Of a stretch of DNA of 64,000 nucleotides, positions 29,161 through 42,190 are shown in pieces (position 1 is the stretch's first letter; every line of letters starts with the position of its first letter). Source of the DNA: an uncultured Acetatifactor sp. (GTDB lineage: Bacteria; Bacillota; Clostridia; Lachnospirales; Lachnospiraceae); assembly GCA_947625255.1 (NCBI GenBank), contig CANQNT010000006.1, positions 1 through 64,000 of the forward strand, written 5' to 3'. The notes under the pieces were generated by a model. The model had not been told where the DNA came from and did no database searches. It saw nothing but the letters and a program-made list of their open reading frames with translations. A program made the translations under genes and the position numbers.

Positions 29161-29700
29161 ATGGAAAAGAGATTACAGATTTTTATTGATAGTGGCGATA
29201 CGATTATAGACGAAGGCACGGAAGTGCGTGATGAAAAAGGGATTGTAGTTCATGCCGGGCTGATTCCGGGTGCTGACGAAATGTTAAAAACTCTTTCTGA
29301 AAGAGGATTTCGGATGGCTTTGGTTGCTGACGGTGAACAACAGTCGTTTGCAAATGTATATCGTGAAAATGGATTGGGTTATTGCTTCGCCACAAGAACG
29401 ATTTCGGAAATTGTTGGAGTACAGAAGCCATCAGAGCATATGTTTCAGGATGCCATGGCGAAAAATGGTCTGACAGAGGCTGATAAAGGGCGTATAATCA
29501 TGGTCGGAAACAATATTCGCAAGGATGTGGCGGGAGCGAATCGGTTTGGAATTACATCTGTGTTATTGGATTGGTCACCTCGTTATAATATGGTTCCGCA
29601 GTGTGAGGATGAGAAACCGGATTTTATTATTCATCATCCGATAGAATTGATTCAACTGGCTGAAGCTTTGGAACATAAATTGGAGGAGCATGAGCAATGA
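29161..29700 (+). CDS. HAD-superfamily hydrolase-like protein
   Basis: A 179-residue HAD-fold protein. Motif I is IFIDSGDTIIDEG, with nucleophile Asp10, but the usual second Asp (two residues on) is Gly. Motif III is seen in GVQKPSEHMF and motif IV in IIMVGNNIRKDVAGANRFGI. The missing general acid, seen also in some other HAD groups, makes ordinary phosphatase activity uncertain. The ATG at 29161 is preferred, though the ribosome site is weak; the ATG at 29137 is the alternative. Its stop overlaps the start of the next gene (ATGA), so the two proteins are probably co-produced and related in function. Confidence 0.8.
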   Translation: MEKRLQIFIDSGDTIIDEGTEVRDEKGIVVHAGLIPGADEMLKTLSERGFRMALVADGEQQSFANVYRENGLGYCFATRTISEIVGVQKPSEHMFQDAMAKNGLTEADKGRIIMVGNNIRKDVAGANRFGITSVLLDWSPRYNMVPQCEDEKPDFIIHHPIELIQLAEALEHKLEEHEQ

Positions 29701-31409
29701 AGCGCTATTGGAAGCATTTGGTTGCTTCTACGGAAACCAGAGTAGAAACATTTTTGAAGAAACAAGTAAGGGACAAATTGCGGACGGACTGTGGCAGGAT
29801 GGACAGCGAGGTGGTGGAAGGAAAACAGACAATTTACCAGCTCACCAATGCGCTTTGTGTTTATTTTTGTGTGGATAGTAAGTATTATAAAAGTCAAGAT
29901 GTTTTTGATGCGGTCAAGCTGGGCGTTTCTTTCGTGGAAAGATGGCAGCGGAAGGACGGAAGCCTGGATTTCCCTACTTGTAATTTTTACTCCGCGCCTG
30001 ACACCGCGTTCTGCTTCCGGCGTTTATATGGAGCGTGGAAAATTCTGCAAAAATATGGGGCCACAGCGGAAGAGGAAGCGTTAAGAAATCGATATTTGGC
30101 ATTGCTTTTACGTTGTATTCCCATTATGCTCTATGGTGGTTTTCATACACCCAATCATCGTTGGGCCGTGACAGCGGCTTTGTTGTGCATGATAAAACTG
30201 GTAGAACAGAATGGCGAAATGGCACTGGAAACAGTTGATTTTCATGCTTGCACTTATGCCAGGACAGAGCCTGTTTCTTCTGTGGAGGAGCTGTGTGAAC
30301 GGTTAAGAAAGCGCGCCGGACAATACCTGGCAGAAGGGATTGATGGGGATGCGGATGGTGAATATGCAGAGCGCTCTGCCGGCAATTACAATGCCGTTGT
30401 GGATAAATCGTTGATTTTTGCTTATGAAATGACCGGAGACGAGAGTTATTTGGATTATGTAGAACGAAATCTGCAAATGATGTTATATTATTTTGATATG
30501 GATGACACCATATTTACGCAGAATTCCACCAGACAGGACCGTGGAAATGCCCTGTATCCGGATCATTATTTTTATCTATATACTTATATGGCAAATAAAA
30601 CTGGATCAACAGTGTTCGATGCGGCCGCCCATAAGATGATATCTGATAACTTAAGACGAGGAGATATAGCCCCTGACTGCCTATATATTTTTATGCTGTA
30701 TGACGGCATGAAGAATTATCAATTCAAGGGTTATGGATATCTGGACGAATATCGGAAGTTTTTCCCTGGTTCTCAGGTACTTCGGGTGAAAAAGGCAAGC
30801 TATGTTTATAGTGTGTTGAACAAGCAAGCCTCCTTTTTATTCTTAAAATTCGGCTCTCTTTCCATAGGGATGCGGATTGGAGAGTCCTATTGTGACATCC
30901 GGAATTTTATTCCGCGGCAGATGGTCGTTACAGAAGACGGCTGTAATCTAAAAGCTGCCGCAAAAGGGTGGTATTATCAGACGTTTTCCGAATCCCAGGC
31001 CACTTCCGATTGGTGGGAAATGGACCATACCAAGCGGGAGCGAATCGTCACGAGTCACGTTGATATCACAGTGAGCATTAAAGAACTGAAAAATGGTCTT
31101 TCCGTCACAGTGAAGGCAGAGGGACTTGATGGTCTGCCATTGCGGGTGGAATTGGATGTTCCGTCCGGAAGCGTGCTGGAAAACGATACATTCTGCATGA
31201 CCGCCGCAAAGGGGGAAAGCATGGTTTTACGGAATGGTTTTTTGCATCTCAAGAATGAAACGCAGGAGCTGGTGATCGGTCCGGGCTATGGTACGCATTC
31301 TTTTAAAGGACATTATTCCGGAGAAGCAAAAAATATGGATGGTTATAGTATTTTCCTAAATGATTATACCCCTTATGAGAGAACCTTTTGTATTGTGGAG
31401 AAAAGATAA
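29697..31409 (+). CDS. Uncharacterised (alpha/alpha)-toroid protein with beta-sandwich tail
   Basis: A 570-residue cytoplasmic protein with no signal peptide. The first about 360 residues are helical with repeated aromatic-rich turns (HTPNHRWAVTAALLCMIKL, SAGNYNAVVDKSLIFAYEM, NALYPDHYFYLYTYM), the style of six-hairpin glycosidases and polysaccharide lyases. The last about 200 residues are beta-rich, ending SIFLNDYTPYERTFCI, and resemble the C-terminal domain of heparinase/alginate-lyase-like enzymes. It is coupled to the HAD-like gene by an ATGA overlap. I cannot name a family with certainty. A lyase or hydrolase for uronate-containing oligosaccharides is a reasonable guess. Confidence 0.65.
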   Translation: MKRYWKHLVASTETRVETFLKKQVRDKLRTDCGRMDSEVVEGKQTIYQLTNALCVYFCVDSKYYKSQDVFDAVKLGVSFVERWQRKDGSLDFPTCNFYSAPDTAFCFRRLYGAWKILQKYGATAEEEALRNRYLALLLRCIPIMLYGGFHTPNHRWAVTAALLCMIKLVEQNGEMALETVDFHACTYARTEPVSSVEELCERLRKRAGQYLAEGIDGDADGEYAERSAGNYNAVVDKSLIFAYEMTGDESYLDYVERNLQMMLYYFDMDDTIFTQNSTRQDRGNALYPDHYFYLYTYMANKTGSTVFDAAAHKMISDNLRRGDIAPDCLYIFMLYDGMKNYQFKGYGYLDEYRKFFPGSQVLRVKKASYVYSVLNKQASFLFLKFGSLSIGMRIGESYCDIRNFIPRQMVVTEDGCNLKAAAKGWYYQTFSESQATSDWWEMDHTKRERIVTSHVDITVSIKELKNGLSVTVKAEGLDGLPLRVELDVPSGSVLENDTFCMTAAKGESMVLRNGFLHLKNETQELVIGPGYGTHSFKGHYSGEAKNMDGYSIFLNDYTPYERTFCIVEKR

Positions 31410-32395: not shown

Positions 32396-32416
32396 GAAAC
32401 GCCAGGAAGGCATTTC
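32396..32416. terminator. Hairpin between convergent genes
   Basis: GAAACGCC (32396-32403) pairs with GGCATTTC (32409-32416), one wobble. It lies between the alarmone synthetase and the end of atpC, overlapping the atpC stop. No long T-run is present on either strand, so termination is only probable. Confidence 0.35.
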
Positions 32417-32735
32417 AAAAAGTGGTTTCCTCCTTTGGACTCCGGGAGAAGCTTTCCACCGCCACTGTCACAAGATTTTGATTGACAGTGGCGAATCCAT
32501 GTCCGCATTGTCCTTTCAGCACAACCTTTCCCGCGTTCAAGGCTTCGATTTCTCCTTTTTCCAGAGACAACAAGGCCTTTGCATGGCCCGGACGGATGCC
32601 ATAGCTTCCTCCGCCCTTGCCGCCTGAGTTATCTCGAACCGTCAAATGAATGGAATCGCAGGAAACAGGGGCCTGCGTACCCTTAGGGGTGACGATTTTC
32701 AATGTAAGTTCACTTGCCTTTTCCTTTTCGTCCAT
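32415..32735 (-). CDS. atpC: ATP synthase epsilon subunit, short form
   Basis: A 106-residue epsilon subunit of the F1 central stalk. LTLKIVTPKGT begins the beta-sandwich, and YGIRPGHAKALLSLEKGEIE is the family's diagnostic segment. Usual epsilon subunits have 130-140 residues, with two C-terminal helices that can inhibit ATP hydrolysis. Here the protein ends soon after the beta domain, so that regulatory arm is absent. A Gly-rich insert (SGGKGGGS) precedes the conserved segment. It is the last gene of the operon, 119 bases after atpD. This spacing is wide for the operon, and it has its own start at 32735. Confidence 0.85.
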   Translation of the reverse strand: MDEKEKASELTLKIVTPKGTQAPVSCDSIHLTVRDNSGGKGGGSYGIRPGHAKALLSLEKGEIEALNAGKVVLKGQCGHGFATVNQNLVTVAVESFSRSPKEETTF

Positions 32736-32854
32736 TTTACCCTCGATTCAATACCTTTTTTGTACAAAAAGCCATTTCGCGCAGAATCTTTGTTAGCCGT
32801 TCTTGTTTCGGAACGCAGTCTATTTGCCGGAAGAGGTGTTTCGTTTGCCGCACC

Positions 32855-34300
<1,446 letters not shown>

Positions 34301-35146
34301 CTACCCGTTGCCCGGTCTGGCGGCTTCTCCGGAGGAGGTCTCAATTACGTCCGCGGTAACAGCGCTTTGGCGGTTATGGTTAATTTCATTTTCCAGTTGG
34401 GCACAGAACTCTGTGGCGGCGTCGTATGCCGCACGCATGGTCATCAGCGTCGCGGCCTGCGCGCCCAGCGCGGACTCCAGGGCGAGCTCGTAAAACATGG
34501 AGCAGAATAAGGTTTCCGCGGTTTCCGTGATTACGGTGCGCTTGTCCGGCACACAGAGAACCGACCCGCGGTCCGCTTCCGGCTCCGGACGCCTGGTCCC
34601 TGGGAATAAGCTGCAGATCGTGGGAACCTGCTCCAGCATATTCACGTATTTTGGATAAATCACATAAATCTCAGAAGCGGATCCCGTCCTGCGCAGTGAC
34701 AAAAGATCGCGCAGCAGCATACTGCATTCCTGGTAGGTCGGGAGATCATGCGGAAGATACCGCTGCTCCATGGGCAGTCCCTTTTCCTTAAAAAAGCGAA
34801 TTGCCTTTTTCCCATAAGCCACTAATAGAAAAGAATCCTGCTTTAAGAGTTCCTGATAGGCGAACTTCAGAACCTCCGCGTTAAAGCTTCCGCACAGCCC
34901 CTTATTCGAGGCCATCACGAGAAAGACAGGAGGTGCTTCCGGATTGGCCGCCGGAATCGCTTCCAGAAAACTGGCCTGATACTCGTCAAATACCTTTTTG
35001 CACGCTTTGCCGTACTCGGAATACTGGCCGTAGCTTACATTCAGTTTTGAAAACTTTGCGGCGGAAACGGTTCTCATGGCTTTGGTGAGCTTCTGGGTCG
35101 AACGGATTCCCCGCAATTCTTTTTTGAGACTCTGTATTGAAGGCAT
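34301..35146 (-). CDS. atpG: ATP synthase gamma subunit
   Basis: A 281-residue rotor shaft subunit. MPSIQSLKKELRGIRSTQKL and TKAMRTVSAAKF are the N-terminal coiled-coil signature. SNKGLCGSFNAEV follows, and the C-terminal helix contains SALGAQAATLMTMRAAYDAA. The ATG at 35146 is preferred because residues further upstream do not fit the family. The fused alpha gene ends 112 bases upstream. The tail after NHNRQSAVTADVIE is about 13 residues longer than usual. Confidence 0.95.
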   Translation of the reverse strand: MPSIQSLKKELRGIRSTQKLTKAMRTVSAAKFSKLNVSYGQYSEYGKACKKVFDEYQASFLEAIPAANPEAPPVFLVMASNKGLCGSFNAEVLKFAYQELLKQDSFLLVAYGKKAIRFFKEKGLPMEQRYLPHDLPTYQECSMLLRDLLSLRRTGSASEIYVIYPKYVNMLEQVPTICSLFPGTRRPEPEADRGSVLCVPDKRTVITETAETLFCSMFYELALESALGAQAATLMTMRAAYDAATEFCAQLENEINHNRQSAVTADVIETSSGEAARPGNG

Positions 35147-35258
35147 ACTTACTCCATTCCGGATTGATTTTGAAGAGGTCTCGCACGATTTGGCTGGCGT
35201 TCGGCCTGGCTGCGTTTTCCTGCAATCCTGCCAACGCATAATCCCGGCTCTGACCTAT

Positions 35259-37493
35259 TTAAGCCAGGGTCCCGCGGTACTCCTCCAGCGCGGACTTAAT
35301 GGCATCAAGCAGCGCCGTGTCCGCTTTTTTCCCGGTTTTCAGCGTCTCCACCAGAGTGCCGTGGCGCGCTTCAAAGAAAGGAAATAGTCCGTTTTCAAAT
35401 TTTCCCATGTCATCTAAGGCAACGCCGTCGGCATAGCCCTCGGAAACGGCAAAGAGCAGGAGCGCCTGCTTCCAGTCTTCCAGAGGCTTGAACCGGCCCT
35501 GCTTCAGGGCTTCCATCAGATGCGCGCCTGCATCCAGAATACGTCGGGTGTCTTCATCAATTTCCGTACCCAGCTGTGTAAAGTCGGCCAATTCCCGATA
35601 TTGAGCCAGCTTGGTGCGTAGGCTTGCGGACATCTGCTTCATCAGCTTGGTCTGGGCGGAGCCGCCTACACGGGAAACGGAAAGGCCCACATTGATGGCG
35701 GGCCGCTGTCCCTCCCGGAACAGTTCGCCCTCCAGGAAGATCTGACCGTCCGTGATGGAGATGACATTGGTGGGGATGTAGGCTGAAATATCTCCAGCCA
35801 GGGTTTCAATAATGGGCAGGGCGGTAATGGAACCGCCGCCCAGTTCCTCCGACAAATGGGCCGAACGTTCCAACAGTCTGGAGTGGAGATAGAAAATATC
35901 GCCGGGATAAGCTTCTCGGCCCGAAGGACGGTGCAGCAAAAGGGAAAGCTCACGGTAAGCCACCGCGTGCTTGGAAAGGTCGTCGTAAATGATCAAAACA
36001 TCTCTTCCGGCATACATGAAATATTCCGCCATGGCGGTGCCGGAGAAAGGCGCGATATATTGAGTGGCAGCGGAGCCGGAGGCGTTGGCGGCCACGATGG
36101 TGGTATATTCCATGGCCCCATACTGTACCAGACGGTCCTTAATCTCTGCGATCGTGGTATCCTTTTGCCCGATGGCGACATAGATACAGACGGTGTTCTT
36201 GCCTTTCTGGTTGATGATCGCATCCAAAGCAAGGGCTGTTTTCCCTGTTTGCCTGTCGCCGATGATCAGCTCTCTCTGGCCTCTGCCGATGGGGACCAGG
36301 GCGTCGATGGCTTTGATGCCGGTATGCAGAGGCTTGCTGACGGGAGCCCGGTCCAAAATTCCCGGTGCGTGGCATTCAATAGGACGTTTCGCGGTTGCGT
36401 AAATATAGCCTTCGCCGTCAATCGGATTGCCGATGGCATCCACTACACGGCCCAGCAGTGCGTCCCCTACGGGAACGGAGGCAATTCTTCCCACACGTCT
36501 GACGCGGCTTCCGCTTTCAATATTGGAAAATTCGCCAAAGACCACGCAGCCGATGCGCTCGGGCTGAATATCCAGAATCATGCCGCGCTCGCCGCAGTCG
36601 AATTCCACCACTTCTCCATACATGATGTCTGCCAGACCGTCCATCCAACAGATACCATCGGAAATCTGCATGACTCTTCCCAACTGGTAGACATGAATCC
36701 TGGGAACAAAATTCGCCGCTTTTTGCTCAAATTCCTCCAGAACCTCCTTACTGGGTTCGTCCGTGGTAATGGGGGCTTTGCTGATGTTTTTTTCAAAATG
36801 ATACAATTCTTCCGCCACAGTGTAATCATATACCGTGTCACCGATTCGTAGTCTCAGGCCGCCGATCAGGTCCGGATCCTCTCTTACCCAAAGAGAAGTC
36901 TTTCCGTGAACCTCGTTCAGGAGCTTCGTGGTGGCTTCATCCACTTTTTTCACCAGGGCGGGATCCAGGGGGAAAGCGGAGGTCAGCGTCACATAAAGGA
37001 CGTCATGGTATTTCAAATAAGCCATATCACCGGGGGTCAGCTTGATGACACTCAGAATTTCATCAAGCTGGTCATCTTCCTGGGCCCGGATTCTGCTCAG
37101 GTAGGGTTCCTTGGAAAAGATCTCCACGACCTGTTCTTTCATGACCTGGAAAAATTTACGCTTTGTTTTTTCAATCTGGACACGATAGATTTCGCGGCAT
37201 TCCCGGTCTCCAAAGGTTTCCACCTGGGCAATCTTGGCTTCCGTCAGGGCTTTTTCCTGGGCCAGAGCGGTGGTTACTTCGGATAAAGTATCGTTGACCG
37301 GCGCCGCCAGGTTTTCCGGTACGAATTCAGGGGCCTTGGGCGGTTCGCTGTTTTCAATTCGCCGTGCCTCGTCCAGATCCCTTAAAATCTTATTCCGACG
37401 GTCTACGAAAAGATGAATCACCATCTTGCGGCAGAAGAAAATCAGAATCCCCGCAAGAATCAGAAAATTAATGACGACATATATTAGCTTCAT
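35259..37493 (-). CDS. atpA: Fused ATP synthase b'-delta-alpha polypeptide
   Basis: One 744-codon frame carries three subunits. Residues 1-75: membrane segment INFLILAGILIFFCRKM (8-24) and the charged start RRNKILRDLDEARR of a b-type stalk. Residues about 80-235: delta subunit, ending with the signature WVREDPDLIGGLRLRIGD (202-219). Residues about 245-744: complete alpha subunit with IHVYQLGRVMQISDGICWM, P-loop GDRQTGKT (412-419) and the Arg-finger segment VSRVGGSAQTKLMKQM. No separate atpH exists in the operon, which supports a true fusion. b-delta fusions are known from mycobacteria; I know of no well-described b-delta-alpha protein. A separate b gene (atpF) lies immediately upstream, so the stalk would be a b/b' heterodimer covalently tied to alpha. 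Confidence 0.93.
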   Translation of the reverse strand: MKLIYVVINFLILAGILIFFCRKMVIHLFVDRRNKILRDLDEARRIENSEPPKAPEFVPENLAAPVNDTLSEVTTALAQEKALTEAKIAQVETFGDRECREIYRVQIEKTKRKFFQVMKEQVVEIFSKEPYLSRIRAQEDDQLDEILSVIKLTPGDMAYLKYHDVLYVTLTSAFPLDPALVKKVDEATTKLLNEVHGKTSLWVREDPDLIGGLRLRIGDTVYDYTVAEELYHFEKNISKAPITTDEPSKEVLEEFEQKAANFVPRIHVYQLGRVMQISDGICWMDGLADIMYGEVVEFDCGERGMILDIQPERIGCVVFGEFSNIESGSRVRRVGRIASVPVGDALLGRVVDAIGNPIDGEGYIYATAKRPIECHAPGILDRAPVSKPLHTGIKAIDALVPIGRGQRELIIGDRQTGKTALALDAIINQKGKNTVCIYVAIGQKDTTIAEIKDRLVQYGAMEYTTIVAANASGSAATQYIAPFSGTAMAEYFMYAGRDVLIIYDDLSKHAVAYRELSLLLHRPSGREAYPGDIFYLHSRLLERSAHLSEELGGGSITALPIIETLAGDISAYIPTNVISITDGQIFLEGELFREGQRPAINVGLSVSRVGGSAQTKLMKQMSASLRTKLAQYRELADFTQLGTEIDEDTRRILDAGAHLMEALKQGRFKPLEDWKQALLLFAVSEGYADGVALDDMGKFENGLFPFFEARHGTLVETLKTGKKADTALLDAIKSALEEYRGTLA

Positions 37494-37497
37494 GGTT

Positions 37498-37917
37498 TCA
37501 TTCCTTTACCAAACTTTCCGCAAAAGAAACGGCAAGCTCATCCGCGCGCTGGCTCAACACGGTTAAAAGTTCGGTACATTCCGCCTCTGCCTTGGCACGA
37601 TACTGATCCACCTTGTGGAGTCTTTCATCGTTGGCGGCTTCCAACCGTTCCTTGCCCTCCGAGCGAATGCTTTCAAGCTCCGCTTTCTTTTGCTTCCGTT
37701 GTTGTTCCAGAAAGGCGGTTCTTTTTTCTTCCAGCATGGCCGCGTATTCCTGCTCCAGCTTCTCATACGCGGCCTTTTTGGCGGCAGCGTTCTGAATCCG
37801 TTCCCGGCGCTGGTCCAACATTTTCAAAACAGGCTGAAACAGCAGGAAATGGAGAATCAGCATGAGCAGCAGAAAGCAGAGAATGGTCCATATTACAACC
37901 GAAATCTGTATTGTCAT
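37498..37917 (-). CDS. atpF: ATP synthase b subunit
   Basis: A 139-residue peripheral stalk protein. One membrane helix (about 5-28, IWTILCFLLLMLILHFLLF) with the usual FQPVLKMLDQRRERI exit, then a highly charged coiled coil (about 40-135). It is shorter than the typical 160-residue b. It lies between atpE and the fused stalk-alpha gene, spacing only 4 bases to the latter. It should pair with the b-like N-terminus of the fusion. Confidence 0.92.
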   Translation of the reverse strand: MTIQISVVIWTILCFLLLMLILHFLLFQPVLKMLDQRRERIQNAAAKKAAYEKLEQEYAAMLEEKRTAFLEQQRKQKKAELESIRSEGKERLEAANDERLHKVDQYRAKAEAECTELLTVLSQRADELAVSFAESLVKE

Positions 37918-37928
37918 AATATCACCCG

Positions 37929-38156
37929 TTAAATTTTGGCAACTAACATAAAGGCAATCAAAAGTCCGTAAATGGTAAGGGCCTCCATAAGGGCCAGGGA
38001 AATGATCAGAGTGGAACGGATATCCTTGGCGGCGTCCGGCTGGCGTGCGATGCTCTCCATGGCACTCTTGGCAGTGAGGCCTTGCGCAATGGAGGGACCC
38101 AGGGTACTGATGGAAATAGCCATGGCGGCTGCAATTGCAATAATTTCTGTTGACAT
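37929..38156 (-). CDS. atpE: ATP synthase c subunit
   Basis: A 75-residue hairpin protein of the membrane rotor ring. The loop is [13 protein letters not shown] and the ion-binding carboxylate is Glu58 in [16 protein letters not shown]. Gln25 (GPSIAQG) is in the position used by sodium-binding c rings, but the Ser/Thr directly after Glu in sodium types is Ala59-Leu60 here. Proton coupling is therefore more likely, though not certain. The gene is preceded by AAGAAAAGGAGAAAA. Confidence 0.96.
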
Positions 38157-38214
38157 AATCTTTTCTCCTTTTCTTTCTTAATCTACTTATATAAATAATA
38201 TCACAGAGAGGCCG

Positions 38215-38889
38215 TTACTCTGTTTCCGTTGCCTCGTCGAGGTAGATCGAGGTAAGCATGGTAAAAACAAGTGCCTGCAGAGCGCAGAACAACAAGGACA
38301 GCACCATCATTACGATCGGAACGCCGATGGGCAGGATGCTGTACAGTTCCTCGGTCACCATTTCCTCCCCGAAGACATTGCCGAACAAACGCAGCGCCAG
38401 AGACGCGGGCTTAATAAACTCGTCCAGCAAAAGCAGGGGCAGCATGAAAAACATGGGACTTACAAAACGCTTGAAATAATGCTTTACACCGCACCGCAGT
38501 CCCGCGAACTGCAAAAACAAAAAAGTAACAATGCCCAGTCCCGCGGTTACGGAAAGGGACGAGGTGGGCGCTTTCGCATAATCCGTCAGGCCGACTCCGG
38601 GAAAGAGGCCGGAATAATTGGCAAAAATAATGAAAATGAAGAGAGAGGCGAGGAAAGAAAAATATTTTCTGGACTTTTCATGTCCCAGAAGCCCCTCAAA
38701 AAAATGATCGAGATATTCCACGCCGGTTTCAATGATATTCTGAAAAATGCCGGGACGCTCCCTGAGATTGTGCTTGATCAATAGGGAAATCAGCAATACG
38801 ATGGCGAGAATGATCCACATCATGATCACTTCCCCGGTCACGTCCAATATCCCGAACAGATGAATTACGACCTTTGAGCCTTCACCCAT
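38215..38889 (-). CDS. atpB: ATP synthase a subunit
   Basis: A 224-residue membrane stator with five to six helices. The essential Arg lies in the conserved helix SLALRLFGNVFGEEMV. The early segments TGEVIMMWIILAIVLLISLL and NIIETGVEYLDHFFEGLLG fit the family. The start is the ATG at 38889 behind GGAGG; it overlaps the end of the upstream atpI-like gene by 8 bases. The downstream atpE gene follows after 58 bases. Confidence 0.95.
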   Translation of the reverse strand: MGEGSKVVIHLFGILDVTGEVIMMWIILAIVLLISLLIKHNLRERPGIFQNIIETGVEYLDHFFEGLLGHEKSRKYFSFLASLFIFIIFANYSGLFPGVGLTDYAKAPTSSLSVTAGLGIVTFLFLQFAGLRCGVKHYFKRFVSPMFFMLPLLLLDEFIKPASLALRLFGNVFGEEMVTEELYSILPIGVPIVMMVLSLLFCALQALVFTMLTSIYLDEATETE

Positions 38890-39202
38890 TAGAGGAATCC
38901 TCCTTTCCGTGCAAGGAATCATTGAGCTTCACAAGCTGATAGGTAAACCAGAACATTGGCAGAGTGATTCCCAGACAACCGCCCACCAACAGCCAGATTT
39001 TGCTCCAGGGCGTATAATTGCCCAATACAAACAACAAAACCAGGAAAAGCACCTGCAGGATCTGTTTTCCCACCTGGACCGCTACATATCCGGACGGATT
39101 CTTTTGCAAAACCCTTCGGGATATCCCGTAACTGGCCGCGGAGATGGCAGCACCAATGATAAAAGCCAGAATTGCGCCAAAAATATTGTGTTCGATTTTC
39201 AT
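38882..39202 (-). CDS. atpI: AtpI-like small membrane protein
   Basis: A 106-residue protein with four probable membrane helices, first gene of the ATP synthase operon. AtpI proteins assist ring assembly or ion uptake; sequence conservation is low and the name rests mainly on position and topology. The ATG at 39202 behind GAAGG is preferred over the one at 39220. Its end overlaps atpB. Confidence 0.75.
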   Translation of the reverse strand: MKIEHNIFGAILAFIIGAAISAASYGISRRVLQKNPSGYVAVQVGKQILQVLFLVLLFVLGNYTPWSKIWLLVGGCLGITLPMFWFTYQLVKLNDSLHGKEDSSNG

Positions 39203-39222
39203 CACCTTCTTTACAAGCACCT

Positions 39223-39441: not shown

Positions 39442-39972
39442 ATGGAACAAAACATAGAATTGGTAAAATTGGCAAAAACCGGGGATCCCCATGCGTTTGC
39501 CCAATTATATGAGTGTGTCTATAAGGATTTGTATAGGTTTGCGTTTATTTCACTGCGAAGCCGCGAGGACGCGGAGGACGTGGTCGGCGAGACAGTGCTG
39601 GACGCGTTCACGGCGATCGGGGGTCTGCGCAGGGAGGAAGCCTTTCGGGCGTGGATTTTCCGGATTCTTTCCAACAAATGTAAGGACAAGCTGAAGGAAT
39701 ATACACAAAAATATGTGGATTGGGAAGAAGTGGAAAACGAGCTTTCCTATAGCGAGGAATGGACGGAAAGCGTTTATCTGCGGAAACTTTTCGGGGAGCT
39801 TGGCGACGAGGAGCGGCTTATTGTCGGACTCCATGTGTTTGGCGGTTATACCAGCCGGGAAATCGCCGGAATGCTGCATATGAAGGCCAACACGGTACGG
39901 ACCAGGGAGAGCAGGGCCTTAAAGAAGCTGGCCGCCCGGATGAGAGCGGCGGAGGTTGAAAGGAATGGATAG
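39442..39972 (+). CDS. ECF-type RNA polymerase sigma factor
   Basis: A 176-residue sigma factor with only regions 2 and 4. Region 2: DLYRFAFISLRSREDAEDVV and EEAFRAWIFRILSNKCKDKL. Region 4: EERLIVGLHVFGGYTSREIA and KANTVRTRESRALKKL. It is translationally coupled to the downstream membrane beta-propeller gene (overlap ATGGATAG), which is the place of an anti-sigma factor. The trigger is unknown; cell-envelope stress is usual for such pairs. The ribosome site is GAGGTGA. Confidence 0.93.
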   Translation: MEQNIELVKLAKTGDPHAFAQLYECVYKDLYRFAFISLRSREDAEDVVGETVLDAFTAIGGLRREEAFRAWIFRILSNKCKDKLKEYTQKYVDWEEVENELSYSEEWTESVYLRKLFGELGDEERLIVGLHVFGGYTSREIAGMLHMKANTVRTRESRALKKLAARMRAAEVERNG

Positions 39973-42190
39973 AAAGATGGAAAAGAAAATCATACAAGAG
40001 ATTCGGAAATCGGCAGAGGAGTTGGAAATCCCGGAGGGTTTGCTGCCGGAAAATGTAGAAGCGCGGTTGGAAACGCTCCCGCGGAAGAACGAAGGGGAGG
40101 AGACCGGAGCGGCACGACCCCGCTTGACGCAAAAGGGCAAACAGAGCCCAAGGCACAGGCGTATCAGGAAAATGTTTCCTGCCTTATATGGTATCAGCGC
40201 CGCGGCCCTGCTGTTGGTCTGCTGTTATACCTTGTTTCAGAATGGCCTGATGGCAAAAAGCGGCTCTTACGACGGGCAGGATGCGCAAAATATGGCAATG
40301 GAAATGGATGGAGAAGCTGCCCAGACGGTGCGGGGAGAGGTGGATTCCACGGGAGCGCCGCAGTCCGCGACACAGCCTCCGGAAGCGTCGCGGACCACGA
40401 CGGGACCGGACGAAGCGCCGCGGTCGCCTGAGACACAGGCGGTAAAGAATGATTCCCAACAGGCCAGACGGTTCCGGGAAGCGAAAAGGGATGCGGGAGA
40501 CCTCTATAAGGTGGCCTCGAATTATGAAGAGGTTTACAATTTGTTGAAGCAATATGAGATTGTGTATGAAACTGAAGACGGACGCAGCGTCAGCGTGTAT
40601 CCGACGGAGCCGGCAGACAACTCCGCTTTCGGGGTGGATGGCGCCTTTGTGGAGAAAGAGGAGATCGCGGCAGGTTCTTATTCCGCCACCAATACGCAGG
40701 TGGCGGGCGTGGATGAGAGCGATATCATCAAGACGGACGGAGTCTGCCTTTATACGGTGAAAGATAACAAGGTCTACATTACCGATATCCGTGGCGGCGA
40801 ATTATCCCCTCTCGCCGTTCTCGACCCGACCCGGGGGGAACAGATGGGGGATGTACAGGAAATCTATGTGGAGGAGGATCGCCTGATCGTGATTGCCTCC
40901 GTGTATGAAAGTCATTTGGTAGAATATGACAGGGAGGAAACCATGGCGCTTCGGGAGAAGCCCATGGCACAAGTGGTCAATGATGCCGCCACGGTTCTTT
41001 ACACTTATGACACTTCGGAGAAGACGGCTCCCAGGCTTCTGGGGACGATCCGTCAGGATGGGGAGTATCGGGATTCCCGCAAAATCGGAGATATGGTTTA
41101 TCTGTTTTCCTGGGAAAACGGGCTGGGTGCCAGATTGGAGACTACGAAGGAGGAGGATTTAGAATGGTTACCCACTGTCAATGGGACATACATTTCCGCC
41201 GACCATATTTATCTTTCCGAGAAAGGGTACAATGCCTTGTTGGTGTCCTCTCTGGATATCAAACATCCCGGCAGAGTGCTGGATGAGATCATGATCTTGT
41301 GCGACGATGAGATTTACCTGACCGCCCAATCCCTTTATCTTTACAATGGGGCTTATATGGGGGATGCTGGCTGGGTGACGCAAATCGCCCGTTTCGCTCT
41401 GGAGGATGGCGTGCTCAACGCTGTCGGAGCCGCCATGGTGGAAGGGACGATCAAAGATACTTTTGCGATCAATGAGTATGGGGAATCTTTCCGTGTGCTG
41501 ACCACTTGCCAGAGAATGGATGATGGCACGGTGGACAATACACTCACGCTCTTTGATCTGGAGCTGCAAAAAAAAGGAACCTTGACGGGCATCGCCCCCG
41601 GGGAAACCATTTATTCCGCCAGATTTTTTGAAAATATGGCATATTTTGTCACCTATCGGAACGTGGATCCTCTTTTCGCGGTGGATTTGTCCGAGGAAAG
41701 TCAGCCTAAGATTCTGGGGGAGCTGGAGCTGACGGGATATTCGGAATATCTTCATCTTTGGGGAGAAGATAAGCTCCTGGGAATCGGCTTTGAGACAGAT
41801 CCTCAAAGCGGTAAGAGGTTAGGAATCAAGATGAGTATGTTCGATCTTTCGGATCCTGCCGGGCTTAAGGTCCTGGACAGTGTGGTTTTGAAAAACAGGT
41901 ATTTTTCTCCGGCGCTGTACCAGTACAAAACCGTTCTGGCAAGTCCGGAAGAGGGTTTGATCGGTTTTGCCGTCGGAGATGAAGCCCGGAGTTATCTGGT
42001 CTACGGATGGGAGGAAGACGGTTTCCGCCTTTTGCTGGAGCGTGAATGGGACGGGGACTCCTGCTCCCTGGATCAAATTCGGGGACTTTATGTGGGAGAC
42101 ATGTTCTATATCGCCTCTCCCAATCAGGTCGTCAGCTTTGACCGCAAGGGCGACTACCGGGAAATAGACGCTCTGGAAATCGGAGAATAA
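39965..42190 (+). CDS. Membrane-anchored beta-propeller protein, probable anti-sigma factor
   Basis: A 741-residue protein. Residues 1-60 are a cytoplasmic basic segment, one membrane helix follows (about 65-85, ISAAALLLVCCYTLF), and then a Ser/Pro/Glu-rich linker. From about residue 240 the outer domain begins with QVAGVDESDIIKTDGVCLYT, the hallmark of the Beta_propel (PF09826) family, and runs to the end. The ATG at 39965 overlaps the sigma factor stop. The N-terminal tail probably binds the sigma factor and the propeller senses something outside. No zinc-finger anti-sigma motif is visible, so the binding mode would be unusual. Confidence 0.85.
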   Translation: MDRKMEKKIIQEIRKSAEELEIPEGLLPENVEARLETLPRKNEGEETGAARPRLTQKGKQSPRHRRIRKMFPALYGISAAALLLVCCYTLFQNGLMAKSGSYDGQDAQNMAMEMDGEAAQTVRGEVDSTGAPQSATQPPEASRTTTGPDEAPRSPETQAVKNDSQQARRFREAKRDAGDLYKVASNYEEVYNLLKQYEIVYETEDGRSVSVYPTEPADNSAFGVDGAFVEKEEIAAGSYSATNTQVAGVDESDIIKTDGVCLYTVKDNKVYITDIRGGELSPLAVLDPTRGEQMGDVQEIYVEEDRLIVIASVYESHLVEYDREETMALREKPMAQVVNDAATVLYTYDTSEKTAPRLLGTIRQDGEYRDSRKIGDMVYLFSWENGLGARLETTKEEDLEWLPTVNGTYISADHIYLSEKGYNALLVSSLDIKHPGRVLDEIMILCDDEIYLTAQSLYLYNGAYMGDAGWVTQIARFALEDGVLNAVGAAMVEGTIKDTFAINEYGESFRVLTTCQRMDDGTVDNTLTLFDLELQKKGTLTGIAPGETIYSARFFENMAYFVTYRNVDPLFAVDLSEESQPKILGELELTGYSEYLHLWGEDKLLGIGFETDPQSGKRLGIKMSMFDLSDPAGLKVLDSVVLKNRYFSPALYQYKTVLASPEEGLIGFAVGDEARSYLVYGWEEDGFRLLLEREWDGDSCSLDQIRGLYVGDMFYIASPNQVVSFDRKGDYREIDALEIGE

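Follow-up and report, generated by a model that had tools for sequence, protein, structure and literature searches.

A natural b'-deltaC-alpha fusion gene in a clostridial F-type ATPase operon: a candidate for an enzyme with several peripheral stalks

The 64,000-nucleotide stretch analyzed here, positions 1 to 64,000 of contig CANQNT010000006.1 of an uncultured Acetatifactor sp. (assembly GCA_947625255.1; in the following called the window), carries an F-type ATPase operon in which one uninterrupted frame of 744 codons encodes a b'-type membrane and stalk helix, only the C-terminal domain of the delta subunit (deltaC) and a complete alpha subunit. This frame is genuine and conserved, and the natural b'-deltaC-alpha gene is a new variant of an architecture that has so far been engineered and predicted to occur in nature. 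Textbook F-ATPases possess one peripheral stalk and one a subunit, which is why the number of ions moved per ATP is set by their c ring. For the operon described here, we give a slight preference to the reading that the F-type ATP synthase/ATPase it encodes has several peripheral stalks.

Counted from stop to stop, the open reading frame (ORF) of the fusion comprises 748 codons without any internal stop, and Pfam and AlphaFold2 give matching anatomies for its product (Table 1). Residues 2-48 were modelled as a single helix with predicted local distance difference test (pLDDT) values of 91-95 for the block, while the match of residues 3-48 to ATP-synt_B (PF00430) is weak (22.2 bits at a cut-off of 28). 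The hinge behind this helix contains a proline, P52, that is present in 54 of 59 aligned sequences, and short helices between residues 126 and 161 precede deltaC. The OSCP (PF00213) match at residues 161-236 spans only profile positions 98-171 of 172, and by this profile the delta N-terminal domain is absent from the fusion. In a model of the arm only, the deltaC block reached pLDDT values of 89-98, and it superposes on the C-terminal domain of E. coli delta with a root-mean-square deviation of 1.6 A over 71 residues. The subsequent linker sits where the N-terminal helix of alpha would be, followed by the alpha/beta barrel, nucleotide-binding and C-terminal domains at residues 272-738 (Pfam). 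Across the 59 aligned sequences, including the window, four of the seven positions of the DPDLIGG signature (residues 206-212) and seven of the eight positions of the P-loop GDRQTGKT (residues 412-419) are invariant or at least 90% conserved; S607-R608-V609-G610, which we take to be the arginine-finger region, is invariant in the same alignment. The model of the whole protein had a mean pLDDT of 79, with low-confidence stretches within alpha as well.

In VIA-align comparisons, mycobacterial b-delta proteins were the best matches of the b'-deltaC arm. Chains of V-ATPases, presumably subunit E, matched less closely; subunit E is present in three copies per V-ATPase. Mycobacterial b-delta contains both delta domains plus an insertion and occurs in one copy per enzyme. 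Like the fusion, it joins a membrane b helix to delta and shares the fold of the arm (PDB 7njk, 7nkd, 7jg5); unlike in the fusion, alpha is free there and the delta N-terminal domain is kept. The parallel to mycobacteria drawn in the original prediction, which had been made from the DNA sequence of the window, thus holds for the arm fold, though neither for the delta N-terminal domain nor for the link to alpha. Its description of one 744-codon frame with a b-type segment, the DPDLIGG signature, a full alpha and a P-loop is borne out by the ORF, Pfam and alignment results. It was likewise right that the operon keeps a separate atpF and has no other atpH, and that three alphas and one delta pose a stoichiometry problem. 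The three predicted parts do share a frame, but delta is represented by its C-terminal domain only, and reading the gene as b'-deltaC-alpha rather than b'-delta-alpha changes the interpretation.

Genome contigs were scanned for homologues, and the best 80 loci of at least 575 encoding stretches were retained, pooled with loci from the window genome and its family and classed by the position of the P-loop. Type III (b'-deltaC-alpha) is represented by 68 loci including the window, 67 of them among the best 80 relatives of this one scan; three (L096, L097, L105) end at a contig end inside alpha. A sequencing or assembly error as the source of the fusion can be ruled out, since the 67 other loci, at 48-82% identity, keep the frame without a stop. 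Plain alphas account for 23 loci, and type I (delta-alpha, approximately 670 amino acids (aa)) and type II (deltaC-alpha, approximately 580 aa) for nine loci each. All type-I loci consist of one frame of about 670 aa; L013 shows a near-full OSCP match and the genome of L104 matches profile positions 26-172, and the others (L014, L016, L018, L024, L026, L027, L034) were judged by length. Not included in the classes were L001-L004, which belong to the window genome itself (counted once as L008), L005-L007 (lacking a match of fusion length) and L107 (an alpha of plain length in which the P-loop pattern was missing); the plain alpha on contig C10 of the window genome was used once, in the tree described below. 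The operon order I-a-c-b-[b'-deltaC-alpha]-gamma-beta-epsilon is conserved among the type-III relatives, with a b-sized membrane ORF directly upstream of the fusion in 61 of the 64 loci with enough flank, a c gene in 62 of 63 and beta downstream in all 57. Epsilon measures at most 113 aa by ORF length in 53 of 56 loci, these ORFs having been picked by script and at least that of L043 being plainly a wrong frame. Short epsilons occur in other enzymes too.

The strongest argument on stoichiometry comes from a genome check, in which other alphas were looked for in 44 type-III genomes (the relatives number 67) and in three genomes with type-I/II loci. No other alpha above the TIGR00962 cut-off was found in 35 of the 44 type-III genomes; there, all three alphas must come from the fusion gene. 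Eight contain a plain alpha as well, and the remaining one (G212, the genome of L050) has two 586-aa frames, which are of deltaC-alpha size and accompany one type-III fusion. Searching 49 genomes with the OSCP profile detected a separate full delta only in those eight genomes and in the window genome, G212 giving one ambiguous match (profile positions 34-172) broken by stops. We consider it quite probable that the full-length fusion fills all three alpha positions.

The delta N-terminal domain, located on the pseudo-threefold axis, has been argued to limit FoF1 to one stalk (Ueno et al., 2025; PMC12229609). An engineered deltaDeltaN-alpha FoF1 was reported to carry up to three stalks, each with an a subunit, and to operate at an H+/ATP ratio of 5.8 vs 3.0 (PMC12229609). 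The window operon resembles this engineered Bacillus PS3 enzyme (PDB 9jc1, chain 9jc1_I) in that the delta N-domain is missing, deltaC is joined in frame to alpha, no other delta or alpha is encoded and epsilon is short; the epsilon C-terminal domain had also been removed in the PS3 enzyme (PMC12229609). In contrast to the designed enzyme with its separate b2 dimers, the fusion described here is natural and includes one b-type stalk as well. Natural deltaDeltaN-alpha fusions (Acidaminococcus fermentans, UniProt G4Q3K6, A0A1I2C5T3), for which a multi-stalk architecture was predicted, share with it the joining of deltaC to alpha, whereas a fused b' stalk is not mentioned for them in the accessible text (PMC12229609). 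The loci of about 580 aa (L108, L111 and others) appear to be of this latter kind. The b'-deltaC-alpha form was found neither in the open-access literature searched nor in the accessible part of PMC12229609, which was itself the only open-access report found on a delta-alpha fusion or a multi-stalk F-ATPase.

The best supported reading is a multi-stalk stator, since the N-terminal domain of delta, presumed to restrict the enzyme to a single stalk, is missing. All three alpha positions of F1 would be filled by the fusion polypeptide, and with the threefold axis free of a delta N-terminal domain, each of the three alphas could bear a deltaC domain. Each b'-deltaC arm would then pair with one b encoded by atpF, giving up to three b/b' stalks; such a b/b' pair, one per alpha, would be the simplest stalk, as the operon retains one separate b. 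Every such stalk could keep an a subunit in place at the c ring, and the more a subunits an enzyme has, the more ions it would move per ATP. In each arm, one strand would run continuously and covalently from the membrane to alpha, for which reason the arms should not fall off F1, whereas the engineered b2 stalks seem to do so. We put the chances that an enzyme carries at least two complete stalks, each with an a subunit, at about even. Tentative, and in our estimation somewhat short of even, is the most specific version: a natural F-type ATPase with three stalks, each of them paired with one b and leading from a membrane helix via delta to an alpha of its own, with up to three a subunits, that is, a V-ATPase-like three-arm stator created by gene fusion, moving two to three times the usual number of ions per ATP and working in the window host beside a sodium-type F-ATPase with a single stalk.

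Several observations weigh against an enzyme with several stalks. The full delta-alpha fusions of another clade (L013, L104) keep the delta N-terminal domain, so that a fusion need not always mean several stalks. Cryo-electron microscopy of the engineered enzyme revealed no stalk in 15%, one in 51%, two in 26% and three in 8%, the missing stalks being attributed by the authors to loss at grid preparation (PMC12229609). All 67 type-III relatives are labelled as metagenome-assembled genomes; as such assemblies are of untold completeness, single absences mean little and the status of the fusion as only alpha may partly reflect missing contigs, although 35 of 44 genomes are hard to explain by missing contigs alone. 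The hinge at residues 49-66, proline-rich and poorly predicted, would, judging from the model, be an obvious protease site. The fusion might thus be a precursor, two or all three copies of which are cut by a protease at the hinge or at the deltaC-alpha linker, leaving ordinary alpha and one stalk. Such processing would solve the stoichiometry without a new architecture, and the linker sequence is variable; however, no conserved motif is visible by eye in the linker columns, the delta N-domain of a one-stalk enzyme went undetected in the operon as well as in the 35 genomes without another alpha, and the engineered fusion stays a fused band on sodium dodecyl sulfate polyacrylamide gel electrophoresis (PMC12229609). 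We regard such processing as unlikely. Finally, one c ring would offer little room for three b', three b and as many as three a subunits. This crowding, together with the single a gene and the single b gene of the window operon, would suit an enzyme in which all three alphas are fused but only one arm forms a working stalk with b and a, the hinge letting the other two b' arms swing aside as spare membrane tethers. Yet in the absence of the delta N-terminal domain the three deltaC sites would not differ from one another, and every stalk of the engineered enzyme carried an a subunit (PMC12229609); idle arms of this kind appear rather improbable to us.

The junction of the window also holds two signals that speak for a separate production of alpha and thereby against several stalks, namely the Shine-Dalgarno-like AAGGAGGT and a slippery-type heptamer. 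After AAGGAGGT, no in-frame start codon at usable spacing is present in the window. Whole, AAGGAGGT occurs in three of the 68 type-III loci (window, L038, L040), and it is shortened at the same place in five near relatives (L039, L041, L043, L044, L096). In the -1 frame, the TAA stop behind the heptamer overlaps AAGGAGGT in the window. Within the junction region of the 68 loci, A AAA AAC is confined to the window; six others (L052, L055, L056, L057, L060, L062) have A AAA AAT at this codon, and 61 have no heptamer there. Start codons were scanned for as in-frame ATG, GTG or TTG with a Shine-Dalgarno match of at least five bases in the 65 codons before the DGI motif (row L087 being mis-anchored). 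The plain alphas start at -34/-35 from this motif in 23 of 23 cases, 22 of them with such a match, whereas a start with such a match lies between -36 and -32 in two of 68 type-III loci (L049, L098). Some in-frame start with a 5-base match lies before the barrel in 17 of the 68, a further point on the side of separate alpha, but none is conserved; the best single ones, with fair spacing, are those of L043 (ATG at -20) and L072 (ATG at -16). Types I and II gave internal starts in three of nine loci each, at scattered positions. Excess conservation of synonymous codons was not seen at residues 200-289 (15 loci; z -3.0 to +1.6), the 12 windows of highest synonymous conservation all lying within alpha. 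With no conserved start, slippery site or synonymous constraint, a conserved internal start and a programmed -1 frameshift were both rejected. Since none of the junction signals is conserved, the full polypeptide is likely to be the primary translation product, and a separate alpha, arising from translation that begins internally at AAGGAGGT or from a -1 frameshift after which ribosomes re-initiate at the junction, seems very improbable. The original prediction had noted no obvious internal ribosome site near the junction, which is correct as regards a start at usable spacing and overlooks AAGGAGGT. Among the three ways out of the stoichiometry problem that it had named, an unusual stator is now the best supported, internal starts find no support in conservation and proteolysis is conceivable to the degree given above. 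Where a canonical operon is also present, as in the window genome, F1 could moreover be mixed, with one fused and two free alphas. The free alphas of the window genome and of eight of the 44 type-III genomes would allow for this, but 35 of the 44 yielded no free alpha and the fusion operon has its own beta, gamma and epsilon; a mixed enzyme can hardly be expected.

Type III is patchily distributed. Its relatives are for the most part gut genomes that bear the labels Clostridia, Oscillospiraceae, Acetatifactor or Eisenbergiella, with a few Prevotella or Chloroflexi/Flexilinea labels that may reflect mis-binning or transfer. Among the matches listed for 200 genomes of the window family, type III was confirmed only in the window genome. 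Two other family genomes, G130 and G052, have deltaC-alpha frames of 605 and 589 aa without the b' part, listed by the search at 775 and 779 aa, so reported lengths may overstate; for type III they agree with stop-to-stop counts where compared (L038 754, L040 776, L042 741). The long frames of G170, G179 and G461 are plain alphas. Ten of 295 genomes from the order of one relative, including that relative, match the whole b'-deltaC arm, nine in frames of 737-784 aa and one in a frame of 521 aa. Across the phylum (398 genomes), deltaC and alpha are matched in one stretch without a stop by at least 17 genomes, leaving aside G434, which lies at a contig end; among the matches listed, a frame as long as those of type III occurs only in the window.

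An alpha-domain tree of 107 rows, calculated by a quick method and weak in its deep branches (support 70), groups types I and II in a first clade, apart from the type-III clade; at the base of the latter, the type-II locus L009 and the type-III locus L102 are neighbours. On this tree, a single origin of all delta-alpha fusions was rejected by the approximately unbiased test (p 0.0136). This suggests that delta or deltaC became fused to alpha at least twice, two origins being a lower bound under that model. In three plain-alpha loci of the type-I/II clade (L015, L017, L020), delta lies in the same frame as alpha with one stop codon shortly before the alpha start; as loss of this stop would fuse the two, these loci are possible pre-fusion states. 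Beside the deltaC-alpha fusion of L009, a 319-aa b'-type protein (L009:410-1366) contains two diverged deltaC-like repeats, which Pfam does not recognise and which match the deltaC of the same locus with BLASTP E values of 3e-6 and 4e-4.

The operon of the window is complete (minus strand, 32415-39220) and comprises I (probable), a, c, b, the fusion, gamma, beta and epsilon; neither a separate delta nor a free alpha was seen in it, and Pfam found no full delta/OSCP with both domains. Alpha, beta, a and c exceed curated cut-offs (TIGR00962, TIGR01039, TIGR01131, TIGR01260). Gamma, b and the epsilon N-domain lie above Pfam cut-offs and under NCBIfam ones (TIGR01146, TIGR01144, TIGR01216), and hence have diverged. 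With alpha and beta over their cut-offs and genes for a, c, gamma, b and epsilon, the operon is of the F-type. Epsilon is reduced to its beta-sandwich domain. The Pfam and TIGR01146 matches of gamma begin only at residues 34 and 32, so the true atpG start is probably at 35146. For the atpI-like ORF, the PF03899 match is below the cut-off and NCBIfam yielded none. A V/A-type catalytic head was rejected, as alpha and beta stay far under the cut-offs of the V-type B (NF003235; fusion 161 and beta 170 of 349 bits) and V-type A models (NF003220; beta 139 of 470). We know of no N-ATPase with such a fusion. The alternate F1F0 enzymes of this name are F-type and have no delta subunit according to PMC5706428; unlike them, the window operon scores 595.0 vs a cut-off of 750.5 for alpha (TIGR03324) and 590.3 vs 752 for beta (TIGR03305).

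Table 1. Coordinates of the fusion gene, its parts, its operon and the junction signals in the window
Feature	Position	Strand	Basis or remark
atpA-type fusion gene b'-deltaC-alpha	35259..37493	-	744 aa, ATG start
b'-type transmembrane and proximal stalk helix, residues 2-48	37350..37490	-	PF00430 match 3-48; one helix
Hinge, proline-rich, low confidence, residues 49-66	37296..37349	-	Alignment and AlphaFold2
Second stalk helix, long, residues 67-126	37116..37295	-	AlphaFold2
Delta (OSCP) C-terminal domain, residues 161-239	36777..37013	-	PF00213 and structure match
Linker with short helix (248-261), residues 240-266	36696..36776	-	AlphaFold2
Complete alpha subunit, residues 267-744	35262..36695	-	TIGR00962 706.5 bits, cut-off 484.45
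Probable atpI-like membrane protein, 112 aa	38882..39220	-	Named from position; PF03899 E 0.012
atpB, a subunit	38215..38922	-	PF00119 153 bits; start may lie downstream
atpE, c subunit, 75 aa, LMEALTIY site	37929..38156	-	TIGR01260 cut-off passed
atpF, separate b subunit, 139 aa	37498..37917	-	PF00430 39.4 bits, cut-off 28
atpG, gamma	34301..35239	-	PF00231 169 bits; below TIGR01146 cut-off
atpD, beta	32855..34267	-	TIGR01039 771 bits
atpC, epsilon, 106 aa	32415..32735	-	PF02823 as sole Pfam match
Shine-Dalgarno-like AAGGAGGT in linker, codons 249-251 (K249-E250-V251)	36742-36749	-	Sequence scan
Slippery-type heptamer A AAA AAC	36786..36792	-	TAA at 36748-36750 would end the -1 frame

The window genome (4.07 Mb, 126 contigs) contains an ordinary F-ATPase operon elsewhere, on contig C10 (L138, G000:C10:60500-70500), with a free b of 184 aa, a full delta of 182 aa, an alpha of 513 aa (by first start), gamma, beta and an epsilon of 134 aa; the full separate delta of this genome is located there. 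Its c subunit reads GPGVGQG...AVAETTGLY, with what we take to be a sodium-type site, and that of the fusion operon GPSIAQG...LMEALTIY. Pattern matching recovered 64 type-III c subunits; the key glutamate is followed by alanine in 63 of them and by threonine in one, which suggests that type-III enzymes use protons. The window cell may hence run Na+ and H+ F-ATPases side by side.

Next to the ATPase operon lies a gene for a stand-alone RelA/SpoT-domain protein (PF04607; 31669-32391), perhaps a small alarmone synthetase, and a 570-aa protein without Pfam matches at E 0.001 is encoded at 29697-31409. Divergent from the operon, positions 39442-42190 encode a sigma factor of the extracytoplasmic function (ECF) type and, behind it, a beta-propeller protein of 744 aa (PF09826) that has a hydrophobic stretch close to its N-terminus.

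Settling the stoichiometry requires, according to Ueno et al. (2025), a version of the engineered enzyme whose stalks stay firmly bound (PMC12229609), and the fusion gene is a natural candidate for such an enzyme. With its b' part it goes beyond the published deltaDeltaN-alpha design, as every stalk would contain a covalent strand from the membrane to alpha. As alpha fusions recur, with at least two origins, what began as an engineering idea becomes an evolutionary one that can be tested. If the proposed architecture is true, a stator built into all three alphas would break the one-stalk rule of F-ATPases and show how cells alter the ion/ATP ratio without altering the c ring, which might permit ATP synthesis at low proton-motive force.

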